A stretch of DNA of 64,000 nucleotides from contig NC_091675.1 of the NCBI RefSeq assembly GCF_042453785.1, positions 2,368,501-2,432,500 of the forward strand, written 5' to 3'. Positions within the stretch are counted from its first letter, which is position 1. Each line of letters opens with the position of its first letter. Source of the DNA: Malus domestica (lineage: Eukaryota > Streptophyta > Magnoliopsida > Rosales > Rosaceae). The notes beneath the pieces were generated by a model. The model saw only the letters and a list, made by a program, of their open reading frames with translations, ran no database searches and was not told the origin of the DNA. Of the stretch, positions 1,844 through 45,768 are shown one piece after another. The position numbers and the translations under genes are program-made.

Positions 1844-4800
1844 TTAAGTCATTTGAAGGTTGAGGCTATTGAGCAGCGTCCACTCGCCACTTGGCCTTCC
1901 AAGAGTGAACTCTAGATTAAGGTACATATCCGACGATGCCAAGGAGCTACAATCCAACGTCGGCCTCTCTTTCATGCTTTGAGCATACCCATGGCGGCGG
2001 CCTGAATCGTCTTCTTCCACCTATATATCAAAGATAAATAAAATGTTATATATAAACACACACACACACACATACACATATATATACAAATTTCTTGTAA
2101 AATTTTGATATAGTAATTGTGATTATTTTTGCATTTTTGCATACCTTAGTGCCATTTGATGGTGGGGAATGAGAATATGTCAAACCATCTTCATGTCTTA
2201 AATTAGAGCTCCCAGTTGTGATCTCCGTCGAAGAAGACCGCAAACCTCTGCACGCAAAATTAGACCATTAGTGATCATGTTGCTTAAGGGGAAGGATCCT
2301 CATTTTTTTTGAAAAAATGGGGACACGCTCCCCACTGTTAGATTGACTTTAATGAAATTGTGTGGTTAAGATTAAAACACATGTCACACAATTTCAACCA
2401 CACAATTTCATTAAAGTTAAATCCAACGGTGAGGAGCGTGTTCCAATTTTTTTGAAAAAATGGGAATCCCTCCCCTTAAGCAATTCCCATTAGTCATCAA
2501 ACATAATCACACATATATGAGTTCTGCCAGTTAGTTAGAACAATATTTTCATCCTCATAAATTCAAGTTTAAATCCTTCTTTGCTTAAATCAGTGTAATA
2601 TCCTGTATATGCCGTGTTATAGAAAAAAACATATATACAATAATCTTAAAAATTAAAGGCACTTAATTGTTGTACTTTTATTGGTAAGAAAATGTGATTT
2701 TGCCCTACCTAATGCAATCTACAAAATGCATGTCAAGCTACTTTTGTAACCGGCAACTGAGATCTAGCAACTTCAATTCTAAGCAGAGCAGGACTCAGTC
2801 GTAATGGAGTCAATAAAACGGAGTCAACAAAATGCATCGATTTGGCCAAGAGATTAGACATGCCTACCCCTAGCTAGCTAATCCATCCAAGGTCTTTGAT
2901 TTCTTTGTGATTTGTGTCAAATATCACTACCGTTGGATTTCAACAGCGTTGAGATTTGCAGTGAATTTCCTTGACTTTTGGTCACACATTGGGATCATAT
3001 CTAATACACATTCACAATCCAACGGATGTGAGATGTGGAGCTCGTTGTAAAGGACAGACGTAATACTTACATTCCCATAACAACCCTAGCCAATTAACTC
3101 CATGTTCATCAAATTCAAGGTGCTTTGAGACTTCAGCAATAAATATTTCTCTACACCATTAACAAAGACAGACAGCCACCATGTTGGACCAAAAGAAATT
3201 CCATCTCCAAGAGTACTAGCTTGTAAAAAATTCGTGATTGTAGGTTAACATTTGCATTCATTTACTAATGCCACTTATTAACCAAGTAATTAAGTCAAAG
3301 GATTTTGCTTATAGGTCTGACCTGAACTAAGAATTTATTTTAATTCTAACTCATTATTTTGTGCTCCGTCACCCTTGAACTAACCTTAAAAGCTTAACTT
3401 AGTGTTAAAAAAACAAATTAAAACTAGAGAACTCACCTATTAGTGTTAACTTTGTCACAAGATAATTGTCCATTGGCTTGAAGTGCTGGATTGATTTCTG
3501 GATTTTGACTCAAACCGATTTCTGTTTGTCCTTCATGACCTACAACATTTACAATAGATAGAACCAATGCCCCTGGATTTATCAGACACAAAGCAAATAA
3601 TTCACATGGACTAGCTACCTAACAACTACTGAAAGTCAGTGCACTTATATCCCGGCCCTCAACCATTTTTTACTTTAGTTTGGGAGGACACAATGGATCA
3701 AGTGATCGAAGAAGTCCCACTCAGATCACCCCAAGCTCCCAAACAAAGAGATAATGGAAAGATAAATAAACAATAATATGGGGTCCTTGTAAGATGAGAG
3801 GGCCGGATCGAAAATCTAATTACCTGTTCCTTTATTGTCTGTGCTCTTCACTGTTCTATACATCTGCATGAAAACACCCAAACGAAAAATAGAAGAAAAA
3901 AATTAGAGAAGATGAAAAATTAGAAAAGGTCCACATTTTCTGCAAGTACCCCCTCTAGATGCTTTTTTGTCCTCACCCTTTTGTTCTCTACCCCCCACTA
4001 CAAATGAATCATACCCATATTGTAAAAATACAAATATGTTAAAAGGTACATTGATATAACAACTCTTTGAAAAATTACAAAGAAGGACCATTTTCATTAT
4101 TCGTATGTTTGAAATCAAACAACTAAAAGAAGATTGAGGACACATGAGTAAGCAGTGATGCTATAGCCCACCTGCAAGTGACTCTTCACGTGAGCAAGGG
4201 TTAGATCCTTCACATTCATCAACTCTAACACAGATTTTGGCGTTGCCCCTGCAGTCATAATTTTAATTAATTTATCAATTACATAAGAAATAAGAATTAG
4301 CATTGAAATAACTTGATTAATAATTAACTGTTTTCTCAAGGGGTTTTATCTCAATTTTTTGCAAGGGGTTTGATTCACTTTCTCCCAGTATAACTTGTAA
4401 TTAATTGTTCTTGGAAATTAAATAGAAATGTGTAGAAATTAAAAAGATTTGTCGATTACTTTCATGGCCGCCAAGAAGCTGCACTGCATGAACGAAATGG
4501 GCATGGAGGGTTGTAGTCCACCGCATTCTTGGAGCTCTGATGCTTCTTTTCACAACACCAACCGTTCTCGCGCTTCTCTTGAACTCGCGGCCGTAGATTT
4601 GAGGGTGGTGGTGGTTGAAGCAATGATTACTGTTGAAGTTTCTTGGCATTTGGAGGGCTGGAGGAGGAGGACTAGCCATATGGTGATGATGATCTTTCCT
4701 TTCATCAAACCCTAAACTCAACTTTGGCTCCTCAACCGCCGAAGCAAGATTGTAACTGCCACTCCTTTCAAGGTGGTAGAAGCCATGTTCCTGACTCAAA

Positions 4801-4976
4801 TCGCTTCCGCTGCTGCCGGAGTCGGTGGCTGAGCTCCTGTCTGTACTGTAAAGTGCTTTTCTCGTTACTCCGATATCGTATGGAAGATCATCCGCAGATG
4901 ATGGAGGGCTGATCTGTAAAGAGAGATCAGGCAAGGGTAAAGAAATTTTTTTCATCATGCTAGGGTTTGAGCTCAT
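1844..4976 (-). CDS. KAN4: KANADI4/ABERRANT TESTA SHAPE-like GARP transcription factor
   Basis: Six exons on the minus strand: 4460-4976, 4172-4248, 3824-3863, 3437-3539, 2145-2247 and 1844-2020. They join in frame with GT/AG borders to give 338 residues. The GARP (MYB-like) DNA-binding domain spans about residues 144-207, opening RSIRAPRMRWT and continuing through GGHERATPKS and HVKSHLQMYRT. An N-terminal PDLSLQIS motif, a PQIYGREFKRS block and a C-terminal LNLEFTLGRPS tail are shared with Arabidopsis KAN4/ATS, which sets abaxial identity in ovule integuments; KANADI proteins act as nuclear repressors. The start at 4976 is the first ATG in the frame; the frame remains open upstream but without an ATG. 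Exon 2 is 77 nt and splits the GARP domain. Intron 4 holds a MITE and intron 5 a CA repeat. KAN2 is a less likely assignment. Confidence 0.9.
2057..2072. repeat. (CA)8 microsatellite in KAN4 intron 5
   Basis: Eight CA units followed by an imperfect TA tract, about 70 bp inside the intron from the exon 5 donor. Confidence 0.9.
2280..2483. mobile_element. MITE family D copy 1, inside KAN4 intron 4
   Basis: Inverted arms start TTGCTTAAGGGGAAGGAT and end with the near complement of this, enclosing a second palindrome around CACACAATTTCA. Flanking CATTAGTGA (left) and CATTAGTCA (right) may be a 9-bp target duplication with one mismatch, which would put the true ends slightly outside the limits given. 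A related copy lies at 31571-31762. Confidence 0.7.
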
Positions 4977-5700
4977 GAGGTACACAGAGGGAGAAAAATA
5001 AGTGACAATGGTGAGGAACAATAAGAGAGATTCTTATAGCAAACAGGAAAGAGAGGGAGAAATGTGTAAATTAATAATATGAAGGAAAAAGGGTTGAGAG
5101 GTATGATAATTATAGGGTCATGAGTGCCTTATGATTTGCATTGGGGTTGAGGAAGTGATCAGACATATAAATTAGTAAGTTGGTAGCCGGAGATAGGGTT
5201 TTTTAAGTAGGATCAAACAATTAGTCAGAGACGGGGAGAGAGAGAGAGGGAAATGGAGAAAGTGAGAGAGTTTTTTTGGGATGAAGGGATGCAGGAAAAG
5301 TTAGTGAAAAGGGGAAGTTGCGTATTTAAGAGAGAGTGCAGAGGGATCAGAGACCTTTCCTGCTTTCGAGTTTCTACAGCTAGAGAGAGCCAGAGAGAGA
5401 GAGAGAAGCCTGGTCTTTTTGGTATTTTGGTTTATGTTTTTTTATGGTAGAGAATGAAAAGGAGGTGCCGGGATATAATGGAGGTTTCTGCAGGGGCAGG
5501 GAATGGTTGGAATTCGAGAAAACAAAAGGGGCACTGTTCAATGGAATATCGGAAACGGAATTGACTCTCTCTCTCTCTCTCTAGGTTTTGATGGATGGAT
5601 GTATGTATGGATGGATCGCGACCTGTTTAAATACGCTACTTACTCTTTTTTTGTTACTATCAGGTATAATTCTCGTTCAATTTTAATATTTTCCTTAAAC
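4977..5700 (-). promoter_or_regulatory. Probable KAN4 5' flank with GA/CT tracts
   Basis: This is the region upstream of the KAN4 start on the minus strand. It contains purine tracts on the plus strand (5234-5249 and around 5382-5405) and a CT run at 5565-5582, a common composition for plant promoters and 5' leaders. I cannot place a convincing TATA box, so the regulatory call rests on position only. Confidence 0.35.
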
Positions 5701-20085: not shown

Positions 20086-23000
20086 CTATACTACATTTGA
20101 TGTTCCTTGTCCGCCTAGATGGTCAAATCCCTTTTTACCAACACCGGAAATGTGCACGTGCATTTCATCCTTACCAACAAGCTCAAAAATGCAAACATCT
20201 CCAATGTTAATGTCATTTCCGCGTACAAATGCCATCCACCCTCCGCAAAAAGTATGCACCACACGCCCTTTCGAGTCTGGGACAGAGTTCACAGTCCAAC
20301 ATTCCCCCTTTGAGTTTCGAAGCACAATCTCTGTTTTAAAGTTGGGGAGGTATTCTGTGGAAAACTGGTATGGGATTTTCTGCAAAAGAATAACCAGTCT
20401 AAGTATGAACCATCCAAAAGCAATCTTCAAAAGAACAATATAAACATGTGTGCGCGAATTGACAAGGCTCACCAATGTATAAGATCCACTGATGTTGAAC
20501 TTCTTCATGATTTTCACAAAATTCGGGAAACAAGAAGTGAAAGATCGAGCTATTCTTTCTTCATCAAGTGTTAACTTGATTCTCAAACCACTTGATTTTG
20601 AATCCAGTTCATCATCAACAACTTTTTTCCTGCGATTAACTGTCTCCATTTTATGGTTCAGAAACCAATTTAAGTTAGAAAAATGAAAGTGCCCTCGACA
20701 TCAACCACTTTAAGCAATATTATTATCATGTGTTTCTTAAACACGTCGAAAATCTAATTACATTAGCCTGAGTTTGTAGATAAAAGTATAGCATGTTAAT
20801 CTAGATGAACTTCACGCCATTTCAATAAAAAACATGGATAGCACACATGGCCCCATCTTTGCAAGAACTTGCTTACTTACCCAACTTTTTACTAGCAACT
20901 TTTGACTGAGCGAGTGCAGCTTTAGTAAGAGATCTTGATGTGCTGCCATATTTCCTTGTGTCATTAATGAAAGCAGCGTCTTGATCCTTCTTTGATGATA
21001 GTTTATCAGCTATCTCTCTTATGCTCTTTGAAAGGACTTTGGGAGAGTTCCCTTTCATTTTCTTTGACAAGCCTTTGATAGTTTTATGCGTAGTGACAGC
21101 TAGCCCCGGACTTAACCAACTAGATGTTTCTCCCTTTTGAATGTGGACACAGAATTCAAACTCACGCACAAGTTCAAAAGTGCAGATATCTCCCAGCTGT
21201 ATGTCATTATAACGAACAAACGCCATCCATCCTCCACAAAGAGTGTGACTGGTATGCACTCTATTACTTGGCACAGAATTGACAGTCCAACTTTCTCCTT
21301 TCCAATTTTGAAGGACAATCTTTACTTTGCAGTTTGGTAAATGTGCCACTGAAAATTTATATGGGATATTCTGCAAAACATAAATCAGCCAGTAAAAAAT
21401 CACTCATACACGCCCACAACCACAAGTGTGAACACACACAAAAGTTCATACAAGAAAAAGAGGCAAAATCTTTAACACTGATAAATCTGTCAGGTGAATC
21501 CCATATAGACTTCCATTCCATGTGAAAAAGAAAAAGCAGAATACCGTGGACATTTTCCAAACCCCAAACCTGAACGACGGAATGAGGAACCACGGGCACA
21601 ACCTCTGGGTGATTGTGGTTAATTCCATCTGGAAACAGTAACATTAAAGCAAGATTTTACATGGTTTGAGGAATTATGGACAAAGAATTGATACCAAATT
21701 GGAATCAATAGATTTTTGTTTTTTTTTTATGCATGAGCAGATAATTAAAATGGGACAGCATCTCAAATGAGTGAATTGATGCAACACGTATACCTTATGT
21801 AAATAAACAAAACATCCCTCATAAGAAGAAAAAGATACAACAACAAAGCCAGAGGGAAGAACCCACCAGAGTATATGAACCACTGATGTTGAAACTTTTT
21901 ATGATTCTCACGAAATAAGGATTAGAGGAGCTAAATGATGGAGCTACTTCATGTGCTGATGACATCTGCATACAAAGTCTACCATTAACATTTAATCCAT
22001 CTCCTTTTCCACACATATTTTGGATCGATTCCTTCGCTTTATATGAAACAACATCCAAACCTGCAAGCAATAATAAAAATATCACCAATGCAACTCTATG
22101 TATTCAGTTTTGTTTGCACAGATGTACGTAAAACTTATTATTTCAGGGTTGACATTCTAGTGCATGTGAACTTCATTCTTATGCCTAGAATTTTATTACA
22201 TGAAAACTTGGGCTCGTTCCGTCCTCTCACTCCAAAATAGTTAAAATTATCTGTAATACAAACAACTTGCTATAAGAGGGAAAAGGAGAGAAAGAAAAAG
22301 GGGCAGGCTGTGCAGAATTATCTGGTGACCGGAAGGTTGCCTTTGTGTGGAAAGAGCCAATAGATCAGTTGGTTTTCTTACCAGGATTCTCAAGTGGATT
22401 TTTTTCTGTGGAACAAGTTGCTTCTTCTCGACCCTCATCAATGCATTCTGACCGGAATTGAGACGAACCGTTTCTAATCTTCTTCACCGCACCATCAACC
22501 AGCTTATTCCCAGATGATGCGACCTCCTCCCTTCTCCTTTTTCGTCCCATATACATATACTTGTCAAAGTTCCTGGAGTCTTGCCCGTATCCAAAACGAA
22601 ATGCAGCCTCTTTCTCACATGCACTTTGATCAAAAATTAGCACGGTGAAACACAAATCACCATCGTATCTAAAAATCAAGAAGTCCCCGCATTCCACATA
22701 ATGGTCTCTCACAAATGCCGGCCACCCACGATGCAAGAACAAACCACCATTCTGTTGAATCAATTCAACACTCCATTCACTGCCGCTAGGGCCGAACAAC
22801 GAAACTAACCCAGATGTTCTGCCTTCCATGTGTCTCATGAATCTTTCTGGGATTTTCTGGAGCATGACATTGTATCACCATCCAAAAGTTCAAAAAACAC
22901 TGAGATTAACCCACCAATATTTTAACTTGGCTAAACTCTGAAGATACAAAAATTATAACTTTTTACAATTTGAGTCTCTCTAGTAACAGAGTAAGATTTT

Positions 23001-35735: not shown

Positions 35736-38700
35736 ATGGCCCCCTTGAGCCAGATTCTCCAAGATTTCCAAGCAATGCCCTTTGCATTCCCTGCTGCCAT
35801 TGCTGCTCTGTCTCTGCTCTTCCTGTTTTCCGTCAAATCTTTCGTCTTTACCAAGAAGAATGCTTTTTCCAAACTCCCTTCTGTTCCAGGTACTTATTTC
35901 TAATTTCCCACTTTTATTTTAGTGTTTTTTTGGTTGGGGATTTATGAGTTTTGTTGAAATGGTTGGTGGGTAAATTGGGAAATTTGCAGTTGTGCCAGGG
36001 CTGCCTCTGGTGGGGAACTTGCTACAGCTGAAGGAGAAGAAGCCGTACAAGACGTTTACTAGGTGGGCTGAGGAGTACGGGCCAATATATTCCATCAAGA
36101 CTGGTGCTTCCACCATGGTTGTTCTCAATTCAACTGATGTCGCCAAAGAGGTAGATTTCTTTTACTCAGTGATTGAAAGACGTGAGTTAGAGCAGTTGGC
36201 TGGGAGCGCGGGCGCAGCGTCTTCCAAGTTCGAGAACTCACTACTCTAAATTAGAGTAATTAGAATACAATAGAGAAATGATTTCCGCACATGTTTTTTC
36301 TTTTTGCACACCTTGTTTATTCATGTTCGTGAATACTCTTTCAATTTATTTATTTCAAAGGCTAAAAGTAAATCAGGGTTTGTACCTAGATGGAAAATGT
36401 GTGCGAAAATCACTTTTTTTATAGAATAGCCTTTGTCAAATAAGGAAAAAAAAATTCACTAGGAACGATGTCACATGATCGAAGGGTACTTATGTTATTT
36501 GCTGGATAAGTAAATTGACCTTCATTGAAGTTTGTTATTACCAAGTGAAATCAGAGTTTATCCATCACTGAAACTTCCGAGTGAGATTATTTGGTTGAGT
36601 TTGGCCTTTGGACCGGTTGACTTGGTTAGTCTACCAGTCTTCACCATTTTTCTTTGGTTGGTGTGGACTTCAGAAATTGTTTAAAATTATTTAAAAAAAA
36701 ACTAACTCTCAAGGATTATTGTTTTAAATTCGGCTGAAGTTTGGTTGCAAACAGAGAACTCGGAGTGATATCGTGTTCACAACTTTGAAATTTGATCTAG
36801 AGGAGAGTCGAATTTTCTCAGGCTTTGATTTTTTGAATCTCCTCATGCGGAGTAATTAATTAATCCGTGCAACGAAAACTGGAGTAGCTGAAGTTGGCAA
36901 TTTATGAGAAGCATAGTTTAGCATTTGCAATTAACATATTGTGTTCTATCTTAAAGCCACGAAAGATCCATTCGACTGAGTTTTCTACTGATTTCCGACT
37001 TATGGGTGTAATATTTTCCATTGACATCGTTATAGAGTTGATGAGCAATAGGCATGTCCTTGACGCGTATTGCAACGCTCAAGGGTCATAACAATGAAAG
37101 TTCTGGTTCTTAATAATTCAATATGTTCTGATGAACTAATGTATTACGGGGATGGTTTTATCCTCTACATATGAATGCTTATGTATCATTGATTCATTAT
37201 CGTATTTTTTCCTTGTATGAAGGGTTGTAATAATCGGTAACCAGTTTCTGCTCTAATGATTGTTTCAGGCCATGGTGACCAGATATCCGTCCATGTCCAC
37301 GAAAAAGCTATCAAATGCACTAAAGATTCTCACTTACGATAAATGTATGGTTGCAATAAGTGACTACAACGATTTTCACAAGATGATAAAACGATACATA
37401 CTCACAAATGTTCTTGGAGCAAATGCTCAGGTTTGTTGTTGCGGTTGTTGTTCTAACTTAAAGCGCATACTATTTCTTATGCCATCATATGGTAGATCTT
37501 GTTATATAACTCCATTAATTAATTATATTCAGAAGCGGCACCGAAGCCACAGAGATACCATGAGGGATAATGTTGCAAGCCGATTGCATGCTCATGTAAA
37601 GAACTCTCCTCAAGAAGCTATAAATTTCAGAAAGATATTCGAGTCTGAACTCTTTGGAATTTCTTTGAAGCAGGTGAGTGTTGCTTTTATTTTAGTAGTA
37701 TAAGTATTCTGTAACGCTTGTTCCTTATACTTGATGTTACAACTGCGAAGTTGAGAATCTAGTAGAATCTAACATAATGGATGCAGGCTATAGGTAAGAA
37801 CATAGAAGACGGCATTTATGTGGAGGAGCTTGGTACTACATTATCAAGAGACGAGATCTTTAAGGTTCTTGTGCTTGACATAATGGAGGGTGCAATCGAG
37901 GTTGATTGGAGAGACTTCTTCCCTTACCTGAGATGGGTTCCTAATAAGACCATAGAGAATAAAATTCAGAGACTCTATCACCGCAGGAAAGCAGTAATGA
38001 ATGCCCTGATCAAGGAGCAGAAGAAGCGAATTGCTTCAGGAGAGGTTCTCTTTTCTTGCTTTCAAATGCAGTCTCTTTTTTTGGGAACTTCTTAGTAGTT
38101 GTATCTGTAACTTGACTGATGTATGAAACAGGAATTGAATTGTTATATCGACTACTTGCTTTCTGAAGCAAAAACGCTAACACCAGAGCAAATAGTCATG
38201 TTGCTTTGGGAGACAATTATCGAGACAGCGGATACTACATTGGTAACAACAGAGTGGGCTATGTATGAACTTGCAAAAGATCAGAAACGACAGGTTATTT
38301 CTATTTTTTTCCATTTTGTATGCACAACGTTTTTCTTTTACGTAGTAACTGTCATTGGCTAACTTTGCCTCGTAATGTAACAGGATCGTCTCTTTGAAGA
38401 AATCCAAAATGTTTGTGGAACCAACAAGATTAATGAGGAACACTTATCCCAGATGCCGTATCTGGGTGCTGTTTTCCATGAGACTTTAAGGAAGCACAGT
38501 CCAGCTCCTATAGTTCCTCTAAGATATGTGCATGAAGATACCCAATTAGGCGGTTACTATGTTCCAGCCGGAACAGAGGTACCTGAGAAATGTTTCCATT
38601 AGATTTATTTTTTCACTTTTTCACAACATTGTTATCGATCTTTTACTAAGTTGTGTTATTGTGCAGATCGCGATTAACATATACGGGTGCAACATGGACA

Positions 38701-38978
38701 AGAACCAATGGGAAAGCCCCGAAGAATGGAAGCCAGAGAGATTTTTGGAACCAAAATACGATCCAATCGATTTGTACAAGACAATGGCATTTGGAGCTGG
38801 AAAGAGGGTGTGTGCCGGTTCTCTTCAGGCGATGCTGATAGCGTGCACCACCATCGGAAGGCTGGTACAGGAGTTTGAGTGGAATCTGAGAGATGGAGAA
38901 GAGGAAAATGTGGACACCGTCGGGCTCACCACTCACAAACTGCATCCAATGCACGCAATCCTCAAACCAAGAAATTAG
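35736..38978 (+). CDS. KO: ent-kaurene oxidase, CYP701A (copy 1)
   Basis: Eight exons (35736-35889, 35990-36150, 37269-37430, 37533-37673, 37787-38044, 38132-38293, 38384-38578 and 38667-38978) give 514 residues. This P450 oxidises ent-kaurene in three steps to ent-kaurenoic acid in gibberellin synthesis, in Arabidopsis at the plastid outer envelope/ER. An N-terminal hydrophobic anchor (about residues 15-35) is followed by [20 protein letters not shown], the I-helix [18 protein letters not shown]-helix ETLR, PERF, and the haem loop [10 protein letters not shown] with Cys460. The match to Arabidopsis KO (GA3) runs end to end. An in-frame ATG at 35667 would add 23 residues; I chose 35736 because the anchor then lies near the N terminus. 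Intron 2 is unusually long (1118 bp). A paralogue with the same exon structure is at 56769-60075. Confidence 0.93.
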
Positions 38979-40284: not shown

Positions 40285-42459
40285 GTATTTAAACACTAAA
40301 AAACTAAAATGTCAATGTTGATGTATTTATACTGACAACTAACTAGCTAGGGTGAAGTACACACAGCATTTGTCGCACCAATCATTTTGTAATGGCAACA
40401 TTATTTAAGCCTCAGTTAAGTCGTTTTGGAGAAATTTTTTGAAGTGCTCAATATTCAAGCAGATATTTCAAGTGTCAAAAAATAAATAGAAGAACACAGG
40501 TGATTAAGCTGTTAGTTTGGTCGCATCGCCTTGTGGAGTAAGCATAAAATGGTAATTATTCTCTGTCACCTTAATTAATTAATGTTAGTACCTGTGTGTT
40601 GTTGCCATGCAGAATTGCAAGTTCTGGCGGTGGCCGAATGGTCGGTTCTAGGTGAGCCCAAAAGGGATAACAAAAGGACTTCAATTGGTCAAACCGTCCA
40701 TATATCCTTCATTTGTGGCTAATTTCTTCTTCAATGTTATAGATGGGTTAGATACAACGAAAGTTTGAAAATGGATCAGTTCGTAGCACGAATGGGGTGA
40801 GTAAACAGTTGAATATGCAACTAATAACCAAGCAATCACTTTCAGTGCAGAAAGATAAAGGAAGTTTAATTAGCATCCTGTTCGAAGGTAAATTCATGTT
40901 TAAAACATGTAACTAAATTGGTATTGCTATATTGGATTGACACTTATCGATCCTTCCTTCTGATTCGTTTCGGACTGCTTCATAATTTAACATTGCTAAA
41001 ACATTTGTGCATGGAACTTGTACTTTCTTTATGCAAGAAAGTTGACGTGTGAAACAAGAGGCTGCTGATGGATGTCATGGCCAAATTAATCGAATAATTA
41101 AGGCATCTGATTTCATACTTAAGCAGTGATTGCTATTAGCATGACCGCTAATAGAACCAGATCCGTCATATTATCACCAGATAAACACAATACTTAGTAG
41201 CATCTCAGTACCAAATAGTTTATTAAAACAAAACAAAAGACTCCGTTATACCATTCTCCTCATGCAAAAAAAGAGATTGAATATGAGAAATGTAATCACA
41301 CGTGAATGTACAATCACGTTACACTTAGACCCAAGTTTTTCTTCCTGAATTAGGGTTAGTGCTAGGGTTTAGTATAGTGTACAGGGGACCGTCGGTAGTC
41401 ACCGTTGAGAAGTCGTCAAAAACACTGACCGGAAAAATGGGGCTGAAAGGTGACAGTGATCGGCATAAACTCCATACTATGTGATTGACAGTAACAGAAA
41501 GAAGACATTGTCGCGGAAGAGCATCTGTAGTTTTGACACAGATCGATGACTTCCTCCCTTTATAGCTTGGCTTGGCTAGTTGCTGGAGCCGCTTGCGTAC
41601 TAGCCTTATACTATGTACGAGCTCATACGCACCAAAAACTAGTACGTACTCATTACTCACCATGCAACGCTCGTTTTTTTCTTTTACCCTCATTTCTCTC
41701 TGTTCATTCTCTAATCCTCTTTTGATTTTATCAATCTAACAATTAGAGAAAAAGAGAGAAGTACAAAGGTATGAAAAAAGAGGTGCGAAACTCGCTGTCA
41801 TGAACTAAGTAAATGAGCAAATAAATGTATATGCCAAATATTTTATAATTAACGATCTAACGATTGAGAATCTTATGATATAATATGTATTGACATGTAC
41901 TCGAAAAACCCACGAAAAAAAAAGGAAATGAAAGGTAGCAGGGTCGCGGGGAGCAAGAACTACGACAAAGTTGAAGCGAATGACTGAAAGGGGGTGAGTT
42001 GAGTGACCTGGGCACCAAGTACCACTCATTACTTGCGATAAGAATCTTGAGGGTAGGGAGCTGCACGACTAGCTGGCATGTAAATGTAGCTAGGGTTCTG
42101 GTACTATTAGACTAGACACAAGGCTTTAGTACCGAGAGAGGAGGTACACACGATATCCAAGGGGCGGAGCAGAGGAGAGAACATAAGCATCCATGCTACA
42201 ATATATGCATGATATGTATAGTTTGTTCAAGTGGATACTCGTGATTTAATAATTGTATGTATTATGTAATGAGGGAGATAAGAAGACAAAAAAATATTAA
42301 TTTAGATATAAAAAGAGAAAAATTTAAACAGGCGCTTGCCGAGCTTCTAAAGAGTCTTCCGTATCGCACTTATAACAAAAACATTTCTCTTCTATGTTTG
42401 AATCTCAAACGAATCAACGCTAATCTCACGTAATACGAGAATGGCTCTCTACGTTTATG
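40285..42459. other. Intergenic
   Basis: Mixed AT-rich DNA. A 122-codon open frame on the minus strand (41325-41693) has no recognised domain and no supporting context; I do not call it a gene. Confidence 0.4.
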
Positions 42460-43935
42460 TAGGGGTGGAATTTTTTCCCGAAAATCCCGAACCGTCCCGA
42501 TCCCGTCCCGAAATTATCCCGAAAAATTCCCGAAACAAATATCCCGAAACATTCGGTACCCGAAACCGATCCCGACCCGAAATTTTCGGTTTGGGATTTG
42601 GCCACTGCTTTGAAATCTTTCGGGAATCCCGAACCGAACCGAATAATTTATATATATATATTTATTTATTTTTAATTTTTAATTAGGAATTACTTGAACC
42701 GTTGGATTTGTTAAAATCAAATCCAACCGTCCATAGTTAGGTCATTTGTTTGTTAGAACTTAGGTTATCATCAGACTCTCTCAGTCGCTCTCGCTCTCTC
42801 ACCTCACTGGCGCCGCTCACCTCACTCACTCTCACAGTCACTCACTCTCACAGTCCCCCCGCTCCACTCCTCCGTCGAATCCACGCCGCTCCTCATCGTC
42901 CATCACTCCATTGACTCACGCCGCTCCACTCCTCCGTCGACTCCAGCCTGATCGAACAAGTTTGGAACAAAGGAATCCATGCCGGTCCTCGTCGTCCATT
43001 GACTCACACCGCTTCTCCATGGACTGACGCTTCTCCATCGACTCACTCACACACTCGAATCCGACACCAATCGAGTCCCAAAATCCAGGTTAGTAGGCCT
43101 AGAAGCTTTCCCAGTTGCATGCAACGCTTCATCTCTGTGCCTCAAGAGAGAATGAGAAAGAAATCATCTCACTTCTTCTTCAACGGAGCTTGATTGTCGA
43201 GAAGGAGGTCCTGGGGTTCACGGCGGAAGGTCCGAAGATTAGGATAAGAGCTTTTGTGGAAGGCGGAGCTGGAATCTGCTGTGGCGCGAACAGAGGAGCT
43301 GTGGCGAGGAAGGACTTGGTGTTCGAGCCTCTCTCTGAGGACTCGCACAGGCTCTGGTGCCAGAAGCTCGGGGATTACATCGATTCTCTCGGTAATTTAA
43401 TTTGTAATCGGCTTGCGTCGTGTTTGGTTGATAGGAAAATGCAGGAAAATGAAACGAATATTTGGAAAAAGTTTGACTTTTCACTTCTGGGTGTTTGACC
43501 GTTGCGAGATTATTTTGAATTTCCGTTGTTCTCGTTCTAATTTCTTAACTCAAGCTCGTTTTACTCTAATGATCACTTAAGCGAGATTAATTATTGAAAA
43601 TCACATGAATTTATGGTTTATTGTTACTTTCCTGCATATGTAGTGATAATATAGGTGGTTTTTTTATAGTACATTATTTGTCTTCAGAATTATGTGCTTA
43701 TATTAAGCTTATGATTTTCTTCTTACAAGCATTGCACTTTTTAGTAGGTAGTAAATGGACTTTCGGGAAAATCCCGAAGTTTCCCGAAAATCCCGAAACA
43801 CTTTCGGGAATCCCGAATTTCGGAATTCCAATAGTTTTGGTTCGGTTTCGGGATATAAAATCCCATCCCGAAATGTTTTGGTTTGGGAATCGGGTTTGGG
43901 GTTTCGGTTCGGGATCCCGACCCGAACCAGCCCTA
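42460..43935. mobile_element. Non-autonomous hAT transposon with captured gene fragment
   Basis: 1476 bp. The ends are TAGGGGTGG (left) and CCAGCCCTA (right), imperfect inverted repeats, flanked by the 8-bp duplication CGTTTATG (42452-42459) and CATTTATG (43936-43943), one mismatch. Short TAGGG termini with 8-bp duplications are hAT hallmarks. Both ends carry dense subterminal clusters of CCCGAA/TTCGGG (42475-42640 and 43760-43930), the kind of repeat hAT transposases bind. The interior has no transposase; instead it has a C-rich leader-like section and a foreign coding exon (43186-43391). Confidence 0.85.
43186..43391 (+). pseudogene. Sphingosine kinase (LCB kinase) exon fragment captured by the hAT element
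   Basis: The open frame reads SLIVEKEVLGFTAEGPKIRI, then RKDLVFEPLSEDS and LGDYIDSLG, ending at a consensus-like donor (TCG then GTAATT). This resembles the N-terminal part of plant sphingosine/long-chain-base kinase (SPHK1), before the conserved catalytic domain, and stops where the SPHK first exon would end. The kinase catalytic region is absent. The surrounding GC-richer sequence (about 42770-43190) may be captured promoter, leader or first-exon DNA. The sequence is still open, so capture may be fairly recent, or it may be transcribed. Confidence 0.7.
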
Positions 43936-45021
43936 CATTTATGCATGAAATGCGAAGAGAGAGATCATGTACGAGTGTGATGTATGATGGTTGGTTCAAG
44001 TTGTGGTAAGTCGTGAGTAAAAACTGTGACACTGGACACGAAAATATTAGTGAGAGAGACAGGAGGTAAACACGATACCCCAGGAGAGGAAGGAGGAAGA
44101 GGAAGGGACAGGCAAAACCAATTATTGTATCCCACGCTGCCCGACACCCATCATATTGTCGGTCCTCATTTATTCTCCCCCCTATTCAACGGTTAATTAG
44201 CCCCCCGGAGTACATGTTCCTTTTCCCTCTCTTTTTTTCATTTATTCATAACAAACAAGGTATTGTTACACTCCATGTTATGAACTACGAAGAACCAGAT
44301 TAATCTCATAAAAAAATTGGACCGTGCTAATATGTATTTACAAATTGAAGAAAGTTTGAACGCGAAAAATAATGTGCTGGAAAAGAAAGTTTGAACACAA
44401 AACAAAATATGCTAAAAAGAATATCGTAACGATAATAGCAATACAACTTGATTTTTTAAAAGTTATATTTTTCCGAGATTATAAATATGGTGAATTAAAG
44501 ATAAATAAAACTGAAATTTAAAAAAATGACGGTCTGCATAAAAAAAAATTATAAAAAAAATCTCAGTAAAAAGAAGGGGGAGAACTTTTTAAAATAATAT
44601 TGCAGGGATCGAGGAAGAACTTGGTCCGATTCATTTCCGACCGAGAGCCAAGTTGATGACAAGAACAAGGTTGAGTAGAGATCACGCAAACCCTAACTGA
44701 TACGCCAGCTTCCCCACGGGCCACAAGACAAACCACGAAAATCTGCCAATCACATTCACCCACGTCACCACCTCCGTGCATGTCACTAAATATTAACCGA
44801 ACAGTTAATTTTAAAAAAAAGCAGATAAATACGAAAGGATAAGTTTACCCACTTAAATTTACTAAATCAGATTAATCGGGAGGTGGTAATTCAGCCGTCC
44901 CACGTGTCACTCGCGCCACCTTCTTCACTCCTCGATAAAACCCTCCTCTCTACTTCCAAAATATCTCCCCCCTCTCTCTGCCCAAATTCCCCCCTACTTT
45001 CTCCAAACGACCACACTCACG
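43936..45021. other. Intergenic and Dof promoter region
   Basis: AT-rich, becoming C-rich toward the Dof start. GATAAAAC at about 44934-44941 could be a TATA-like element giving a leader of about 55-60 nt, a weak call. Confidence 0.4.
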
Positions 45022-45768
45022 ATGCCGTTTGACTCTGCCGACGCGCTAATGCAACCGTCGATGACGACGAGAGTCCAGCACAGCCTGGGCCACCCTCCGC
45101 CGCAGCAGACCGAGCCGCTTCACTGCCCCCGCTGCGATTCTGACAACACCAAGTTCTGCTACTACAACAATTACAACCTCGCCCAGCCACGCCACTTCTG
45201 CAAGTCCTGCCGCCGATACTGGACCCACGGCGGAACCCTCCGCAATGTCCCCGTCGGCGGCGGGTCTCGCAAGAACACCAAGCGTTCTCGCCCATCCTGC
45301 TCTTCCTCCTCGGGCTCGCCCTCCTCCTCTTCACTGACCCAGGAGGTCAGCTCCGTCGCGCCCGATAAACCCAATTCCTTTCCGGTGGAACCGAAGCCTG
45401 AGACGGCGACGGATCACGAAAAACTGATGGACCTGAACGAGAGCGCTGTTGGGAACGGTGGCTTCACTTCTCTGTTGAGTGCTCAGGGCCCACCTGCATC
45501 TGGCTTCATGGCGTTTAGCGGGTTCGGGTACGGGTTGGGGCTCGGGCAAGGGTTTGACGAAGTGGGTACTTTCGGCTACGACGGCGGCAGAGGAGTGCTC
45601 GCTTATCCCGATGTCGGTGATTTTACAAATGTTATCCACAACAATGGAGCTGTTTCTGGGGGTTCTGTCGGGTGCAACACGTGGCAGATTATGACTGGTG
45701 GTGATGGTGGGATAGCAGAGAACAATGGTGATTGCTTTGCCTGGCCGGAGCTGGAGACTTCCAAGTAA
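45022..45768 (+). CDS. Dof zinc-finger transcription factor (DOF3.4/OBP1-like)
   Basis: A single-exon gene of 248 residues. The Dof domain spans about residues 33-85 with the C2C2 zinc ligands Cys35, Cys38, Cys60 and Cys63 (CX2C, 21 residues, CX2C), then [20 protein letters not shown]. Dof proteins bind AAAG cores in plant promoters in the nucleus. A serine-rich linker follows, then a glycine-rich [16 protein letters not shown] segment and a C-terminal CFAWPELE motif. Both resemble DOF3.4 (OBP1), a cell-cycle related Dof, so I favour that subgroup; DOF5.8 and relatives remain possible. The coding region is much richer in GC than its flanks, usual for intronless plant transcription-factor genes. 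The start ATG is the first in frame after a pyrimidine-rich leader. Confidence 0.93.

Follow-up and report, generated by a model that had tools for sequence, protein, structure and literature searches.

A piece of the sphingosine kinase gene SPHK1 was taken up a single time by a hAT transposon family and is now found in five elements, each at a different site, one of them in the window, by which we mean the whole 64,000-nucleotide stretch analysed here (C15:2368501-2432500). Gene capture recurs in this family and SPHK1 is one of several host sequences taken up, as the interval that the SPHK1 piece occupies contains, in sister elements, parts of other host genes. Our preferred reading, to which we give a probability of about 80%, is that the element in the window is an internally deleted, non-autonomous hAT from a family that repeatedly takes up host DNA, and that this family took up SPHK1 on a single occasion and has spread it since.

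The window element and its sister copies

The sequence-only reading had recognized a hAT element without transposase in the window from its ends, an 8-bp target duplication (TSD) and subterminal CCCGAA clusters. The ends and the clusters were confirmed, as was the duplication, which is imperfect in that its two copies agree at 7/8 positions (Table 1). TCCCGAA occurs 20 times in the window compared to 5.46 times expected, a count reached in 0/100 shuffles, and 17/20 of these occurrences fall inside the two subterminal blocks of the element. Short single motifs are weak evidence for an element on their own: allowing one mismatch, the end motif occurs 4 times in the window compared to 2.38 expected, with as many in 23/100 shuffles, and the TSD 8-mer with one mismatch is common. 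It is the sister copies that settle the matter.

Table 1. Features of the hAT element in the window (window positions).
Feature	Position	Strand	Evidence or remark
hAT element, non-autonomous copy	42460..43935	+	1,476 bp; ends, TSD, sister copies
Left TSD, CGTTTATG	42452..42459	.	7/8 match to right TSD
Left TIR, TAGGGGTGG	42460..42468	+	8/9 complementary to 43927-43935
Left subterminal TCCCGAA cluster, 8 copies	42476..42633	+	motif count
Putative transposase 5'-UTR exon, ending in CAAAATCCAG before GT	42755..43088	+	start unmapped; common to non-SPHK sisters
Start of putative 5'-UTR intron	43089..43149	+	element 630-690 match in isomerase (PDI) carriers L015, L017, L018, L022
22-bp footprint resembling L018 PDI insert	43145..43166	+	21/22 with one gap; 1/2000 shuffles as good
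Filler at left capture junction	43167..43179	+	no match to donor or PDI insert
3' 212 bp of SPHK1 exon 1, to native splice donor	43180..43391	+	protein and donor-locus match
SPHK1 intron 1 (donor L009rc 4468-4735)	43392..43659	+	98.5% over 480-bp block including exon
SPHK1 intron 3 end and about 14 bp of exon 4 (donor L009rc 5414-5515)	43660..43761	+	98.1% over 107 bp
Right subterminal TCCCGAA cluster, 9 copies	43762..43914	+	motif count; 99% to L013 3' end
Right TIR, CCAGCCCTA on + strand	43927..43935	-	8/9 TIR bases match left TIR
Right TSD, CATTTATG	43936..43943	.	7/8 match to left TSD

Sisters came from a search of the genome (651 Mb in 19 contigs) with the window element, in which only 40 of 591 candidates were scored. 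Besides the SPHK1 donor and its homeolog, 36 sister loci were fetched and both ends were located in 33 of them, L040, L043 and L055 being dropped from the set as their 3' ends were not seen. Among these 33 sisters, TSDs agree at 8/8 positions in 25, at 7/8 in 3 and at fewer in 5, the last group including L025, which stops short of the 3' tip, and L047, which differs at base 1. The 8-bp TSD, the short TIRs with subterminal arrays and the hAT domains encoded by transposase-bearing relatives all belong to the hAT superfamily, and the window copy itself lacks the hAT transposase. Ends, TSD and sisters thus bear out a hAT element that is non-autonomous, and the sisters, which had been proposed as something to look for, occur both with and without the SPHK1 piece. 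The TIR and the subterminal motif appear to differ from those of Ac, whose TIR is 11 bp long.

About 1.1 kb downstream of the element lies a Dof zinc-finger gene (window 44890-45768, + strand; PF02701, 5e-34; ATG at 45022), which places the hAT insertion within the upstream region of that gene. Two ORFs with B3 domains and an exon of a cytochrome P450 gene elsewhere in the window (20086-22874, - strand; 38550-38978, + strand) belong to ordinary plant genes.

The SPHK1 piece, its donor and its five carriers

The exon inside the element, taken at first to resemble the N-terminal part of plant sphingosine kinase and to end in a usable splice donor, encodes a peptide with 97% identity over 69 aa to SPHK1 of Pyrus (E 1.1e-35; 38/58 candidates in the protein search at E <= 0.01, with top matches from Pyrus and Malus), and ends at 43391, followed by the splice donor GTAATT, which the host gene also has. 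Its originally proposed bounds, 43186-43391, were correct at the end and slightly late at the start, which lies at 43180/43181 in the middle of exon 1, about 42-43 codons into the gene. Nor is it a lone exon: it is followed by the greater part of intron 1 and then, with exons 2-3 missing in between, by the last part of intron 3 and some 14 bp of exon 4, and the retained introns indicate that the piece was copied from DNA. The 131-aa ORF on its own matched no Pfam family and only designed proteins, weakly, in the PDB, and an IMG/VR scan found no relative.

The parent gene, which the sequence-only reading had suggested looking for, is SPHK1 at C5:44.02 Mb, 98.5% identical to the window piece over 480 bp, with a homeolog at C10:40.62 Mb that reaches 85%. 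Two outcomes that were named in advance as contrary to capture, the lack of a close match to the host SPHK gene and a host SPHK locus lying between the repeats, were both tested and excluded. Paired loci in this genome sit on contigs 5/10, 9/17, 2/15 and 2/7, which are apple homeologous pairs. Together with the top protein matches, this makes Malus or a close relative the probable source of the DNA. A genome-wide search with the SPHK1 piece, in which 9/9 candidates were scored, led to five elements, the donor, the homeolog and one 146-bp stray. The stray (L057:2995-3140, C15:45531494-45531639) is 90% identical to SPHK1 exon 1 and was set aside as a capture by this family given that no family element matched in L057; it may be an older capture in which another kind of element was involved. 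The donor was fetched with 9 kb of DNA around it, in which there is no family end and no TCCCGAA cluster. One 13-bp match there resembles an end but has no subterminal TCCCGAA array, and we therefore do not regard it as a remnant of the family.

The carriers are the window element, L011, L012, L013 and L014. Their TSDs lie at different sites and agree at 8/8 positions in four of the five, the window copy being the one with 7/8. All five have the same left breakpoint and the change C16T in common, and they form one clade with support of 100/99 in a tree of 33 five-prime ends from which L025 was left out. What each keeps of the donor differs: in coordinates of the reverse complement of the donor locus L009 (L009rc), 4256-4735 and 5409-5515 in the window copy, 4256-4735 in L011, 4256-4544 in L012, and 4256-4497 together with 5562-5593 in L013 and L014. 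Because neither type of carrier can be cut from the other, the ancestral capture would have covered at least 4256-5593 (1,338 bp), and a single capture of at least this length followed by later deletions is the simplest ancestor of all five structures. In L011, element positions 1200-1383, the 3' subterminal block is partly duplicated (window element 1377-1414 followed by 1323-1476), as if repair had slipped on the TCCCGAA array. Of six private exon changes in the SPHK1 piece of L012, 5/6 are C:G to T:A, which is suggestive of a copy that has been methylated and silenced.

L013 (4,817 bp) and L014 (4,827 bp) have 8/8 TSDs and a transposase reading frame. The description of the carrier as non-autonomous therefore holds for the window copy and fails for these two relatives, in which a transposase gene accompanies the captured SPHK1 piece. 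Searched against Pfam, the L014 ORF matches Dimer_Tnp_hAT (PF05699, 3.7e-27) and the hAT RNase-H-like domain (PF14372, 1.6e-16), with a BED finger at 0.0034 that is below the cut-off, and the closest solved protein in the PDB is Hermes (8.1e-15). The transposases of L013 and L014 each have a coding lesion relative to the other, so that both elements may be inactive. Viewed as Pack-TYPE elements, the carriers hold captured coding DNA between TIRs with a donor located elsewhere, and they were mobilised after the capture to five sites with different TSDs; transposase is absent from the window copy, L011 and L012, and present in L013 and L014.

Other host DNA and the putative leader intron of the transposase gene

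Where SPHK1 sits in its carriers, four sisters hold the 5'-UTR, start codon, exon 1 and splice donor of a gene on C17, with identities of 86% (L015), 90% (L018), 95% (L017) and 94% (L022); 40 of 146 candidates were scored in the search for this source. The remaining exons of the C17 gene match Thioredoxin and have WCGHC motifs, from which we identify it as a protein disulfide isomerase (PDI). L020 and L021 carry 535 bp at 96.8% identity from exon 1 of a C15 gene, a stretch whose first base lies about 11 bp upstream of the ATG of that gene, and the insert of L016 and L019 is an exon from C2 in antisense (99% identity). L041, which has a transposase and lies outside the subfamily of the window element, holds 731 bp with 94% identity to one place on C17, for which there is a homeolog on C9. 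L042 is a chimera of C7 and C10 loci; L023 is a chimera of C9 and C7 loci (40 of 63 candidates scored), as is its 97% copy L024. The L023 pieces, at element 545-1600, come from C7:9.32M and C9:26.61M, and some C7 pieces that abut in the element are separated by 46 and 247 bp in the host, which could be due to intron loss or deletion.

Nine internal regions were traced (those of the window element with its SPHK1 piece, L015, L016, L020, L023, L039, L041, L042 and L045), and 7/9 contain low-copy host DNA, from nine loci, a fraction that does not describe the family as a whole because the sisters were picked by similarity to the window element. Five of the sources (C17:10.94M, C7:8.81M, C10:39.98M, C9:26.61M and C7:9.32M) count here as low-copy DNA that may or may not belong to genes. 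The other two regions traced (2/9) have no clear host source, the L039 insert giving one 206-bp match of 95% at a single place and the L045 insert a match of 85%.

The captured DNA appears to sit in an intron within the 5'-UTR of the transposase gene. In L013 and L014, the SPHK1 piece has the putative 5'-UTR exon on its left and the start codon of the transposase on its right. The predicted acceptor, TTGTCAG, with GATGGA after it at that start codon, is identical in 8/8 transposase-carrying elements, and the donor motif, CAAAATCCAG followed by GT, occurs in 15/20 elements scanned, being exact in only 3/8 transposase carriers. The interval between the donor at 43088 and the TTGTCAG acceptor is strongly different between subfamilies. 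Splicing of the 5'-UTR exon is predicted from this conservation. The leader-like DNA that had been counted as part of the capture is instead the element's own predicted 5'-UTR exon, which sisters without SPHK1 also have.

The SPHK1 piece likely, though not provenly, replaced an earlier isomerase piece in this interval. Left of the SPHK1 join, the window copy and L013 keep a 22-bp footprint that resembles the isomerase insert of L018. Scores are lower against L015, L017 and the isomerase gene, where 13, 8 and 9 of 2000 shuffles, respectively, do as well, and in the SPHK upstream control 103/2000 shuffles do so. All 13 elements with one of the four inserts (five with SPHK1, four with isomerase and two with each of the others) fall into a single clade (100/98), at whose base the isomerase carriers stand; the inner branch has support of 85/80. 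These isomerase carriers are paraphyletic in the best tree yet form a single group in 42% of 200 bootstrap trees, and for this reason the tree does not firmly set the order of captures.

In the window copy, the SPHK1 frame runs for 131 codons before it meets a stop. No in-frame ATG precedes it in 5/5 copies, either unspliced or with one cryptic acceptor modelled, which makes an SPHK or chimeric protein unlikely. As the piece is in sense, transcription in the element's own direction would give no antisense RNA. Any effect of the window piece would be expected to act through RNA and not through SPHK protein, and the copies give no sign of a conserved SPHK protein; most likely, the piece in the window copy is a passenger carried in the intron.

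Origin of the captured DNA and relation to known elements

In the mechanism that we propose, host pieces would be copied in by template switching during the repair of a break within an element or beside it, a process that would bring introns along and leave short microhomologies or filler at the joins. The SPHK1 piece would have been tolerated because it lies within the transposase 5'-UTR intron, which would normally be spliced out. Cut-and-paste transposition would then have spread it and later deletions would have trimmed each copy differently. Microhomology of 1-5 bp at four joins and filler at the left join, both read by eye, fit template-switch repair as set out for animal Pack-TIRs in passages of PMC8277862.

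A different origin, which we judge unlikely, is that SPHK1 lay between two adjacent hAT elements and that all three moved as a single unit, following the local-hopping fusion model of Gisby and Catoni, which was put forward for the Pack-TYPE elements of every superfamily in maize and rice (PMC8903248, section 9). At its right end, the window element has the subterminal variant seen in L020 and L021 and not that of L013, which could mean two contributing elements; however, the 9 kb around the donor is bare of family ends and clusters, and the piece starts mid-exon and is bordered by internal element sequence on both sides in L013. Possible, if somewhat improbable, is a more complicated history for the window copy, L011 and L012, in which a second repair in an L013-like element started from the homologous exon and re-copied a longer part of SPHK1 from the donor. 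The extra intron in the window copy is contiguous with the donor, 5/7 differences of the window copy fall within 41 bp of the join and 2 of these 5 match the homeolog base, but re-copying requires an extra event where the single capture with deletions already covers every structure.

It is quite improbable that the SPHK1 piece serves the host by giving siRNA or chimeric RNA through which SPHK1 would be regulated. Its high identity to the donor, the splice donor that is intact in 5/5 copies and the C:G to T:A changes in L012, which we would expect if that copy were methylated, agree with such a role; against it, 5 amino-acid changes in the 70 codons of L012 give no sign of coding constraint, and the sense orientation of the piece speaks against it too. 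The remaining readings, a host SPHK locus with nested transposons or a processed retrocopy, deserve practically no credence. The full gene on C5 and the homeolog on C10 both lie outside such elements, and the piece keeps introns while lacking about the first 42-43 codons, such that the donor locus and the intron structure of the donor gene refute both. A single capture of SPHK1, later trimmed by deletion, remains the history that we prefer.

Gene capture by hAT elements is already known, and what is unusual here is that one putative intron in the transposase leader has served as a slot more than once. Grapevine Hatvine-6 elements are described as having transposase coding sequence and TIRs in common, with the rest often unique and matching host introns or exons. 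By that description only, they are like the present family in combining transposase and TIR relatedness with host intron and exon DNA, whereas the relevant passages are silent on the position of host DNA relative to the transposase leader and on one captured gene taking the place of another (PMC2528002). In maize, where passages of PMC3260210 call hAT capture rare and list 2 Ds2 and 9 Ds-l4 elements, Ds2-22 and Ds-l4-354 are likewise non-autonomous hATs with exon and intron DNA copied from another chromosome, but the carriers described there have no transposase gene. The Pack-hATs of rice and maize resemble the window copy, L011 and L012 as multi-copy, non-autonomous TIR elements with captured coding DNA, and their inserts are in some cases chimeric from several loci; since the pipeline in the sections concerned classes any element with a transposase hit as autonomous, L013 and L014 fall outside the Pack-TYPE class by definition (PMC8903248). 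Among animal Pack-TIRs, 208/370 belong to hAT, and hAT-N8_XT has a 5'-UTR-derived piece at three sites; microhomology at the joins (median 2 bp) and template-switch models are common ground with our elements, from which those described there differ in being short, non-autonomous, mostly single-copy and animal (PMC8277862). In the open-licence literature we found no mention of a hAT with SPHK inside or of serial replacement in a transposase leader intron, which speaks only weakly for their absence.

Studies of captured genes mostly deal with non-autonomous elements, and one annotation pipeline separates transposase-hit elements by design (PMC8903248, in its pipeline description). Transposase-carrying hATs of the present family hold host gene pieces where splicing could hide them. 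The SPHK1 carriers go back to one capture from one donor and give a dated series that runs from a long copy through a trimmed one to one trimmed further, which makes them useful for testing how hAT elements acquire DNA. A bolder idea, which we regard as doubtful, is that the 5'-UTR intron is an exchangeable slot in which host pieces are captured, replaced and kept for the leader exons and transposase regulation that they supply or vary, with serial replacement driving the evolution of the family. The slot pieces are often first exons with their own splice donors, and the sequence here, if true, would run from isomerase exon 1 to SPHK1 exon 1. Were the slot to affect transposase expression, this would be a reason for the persistence of captures in the family.
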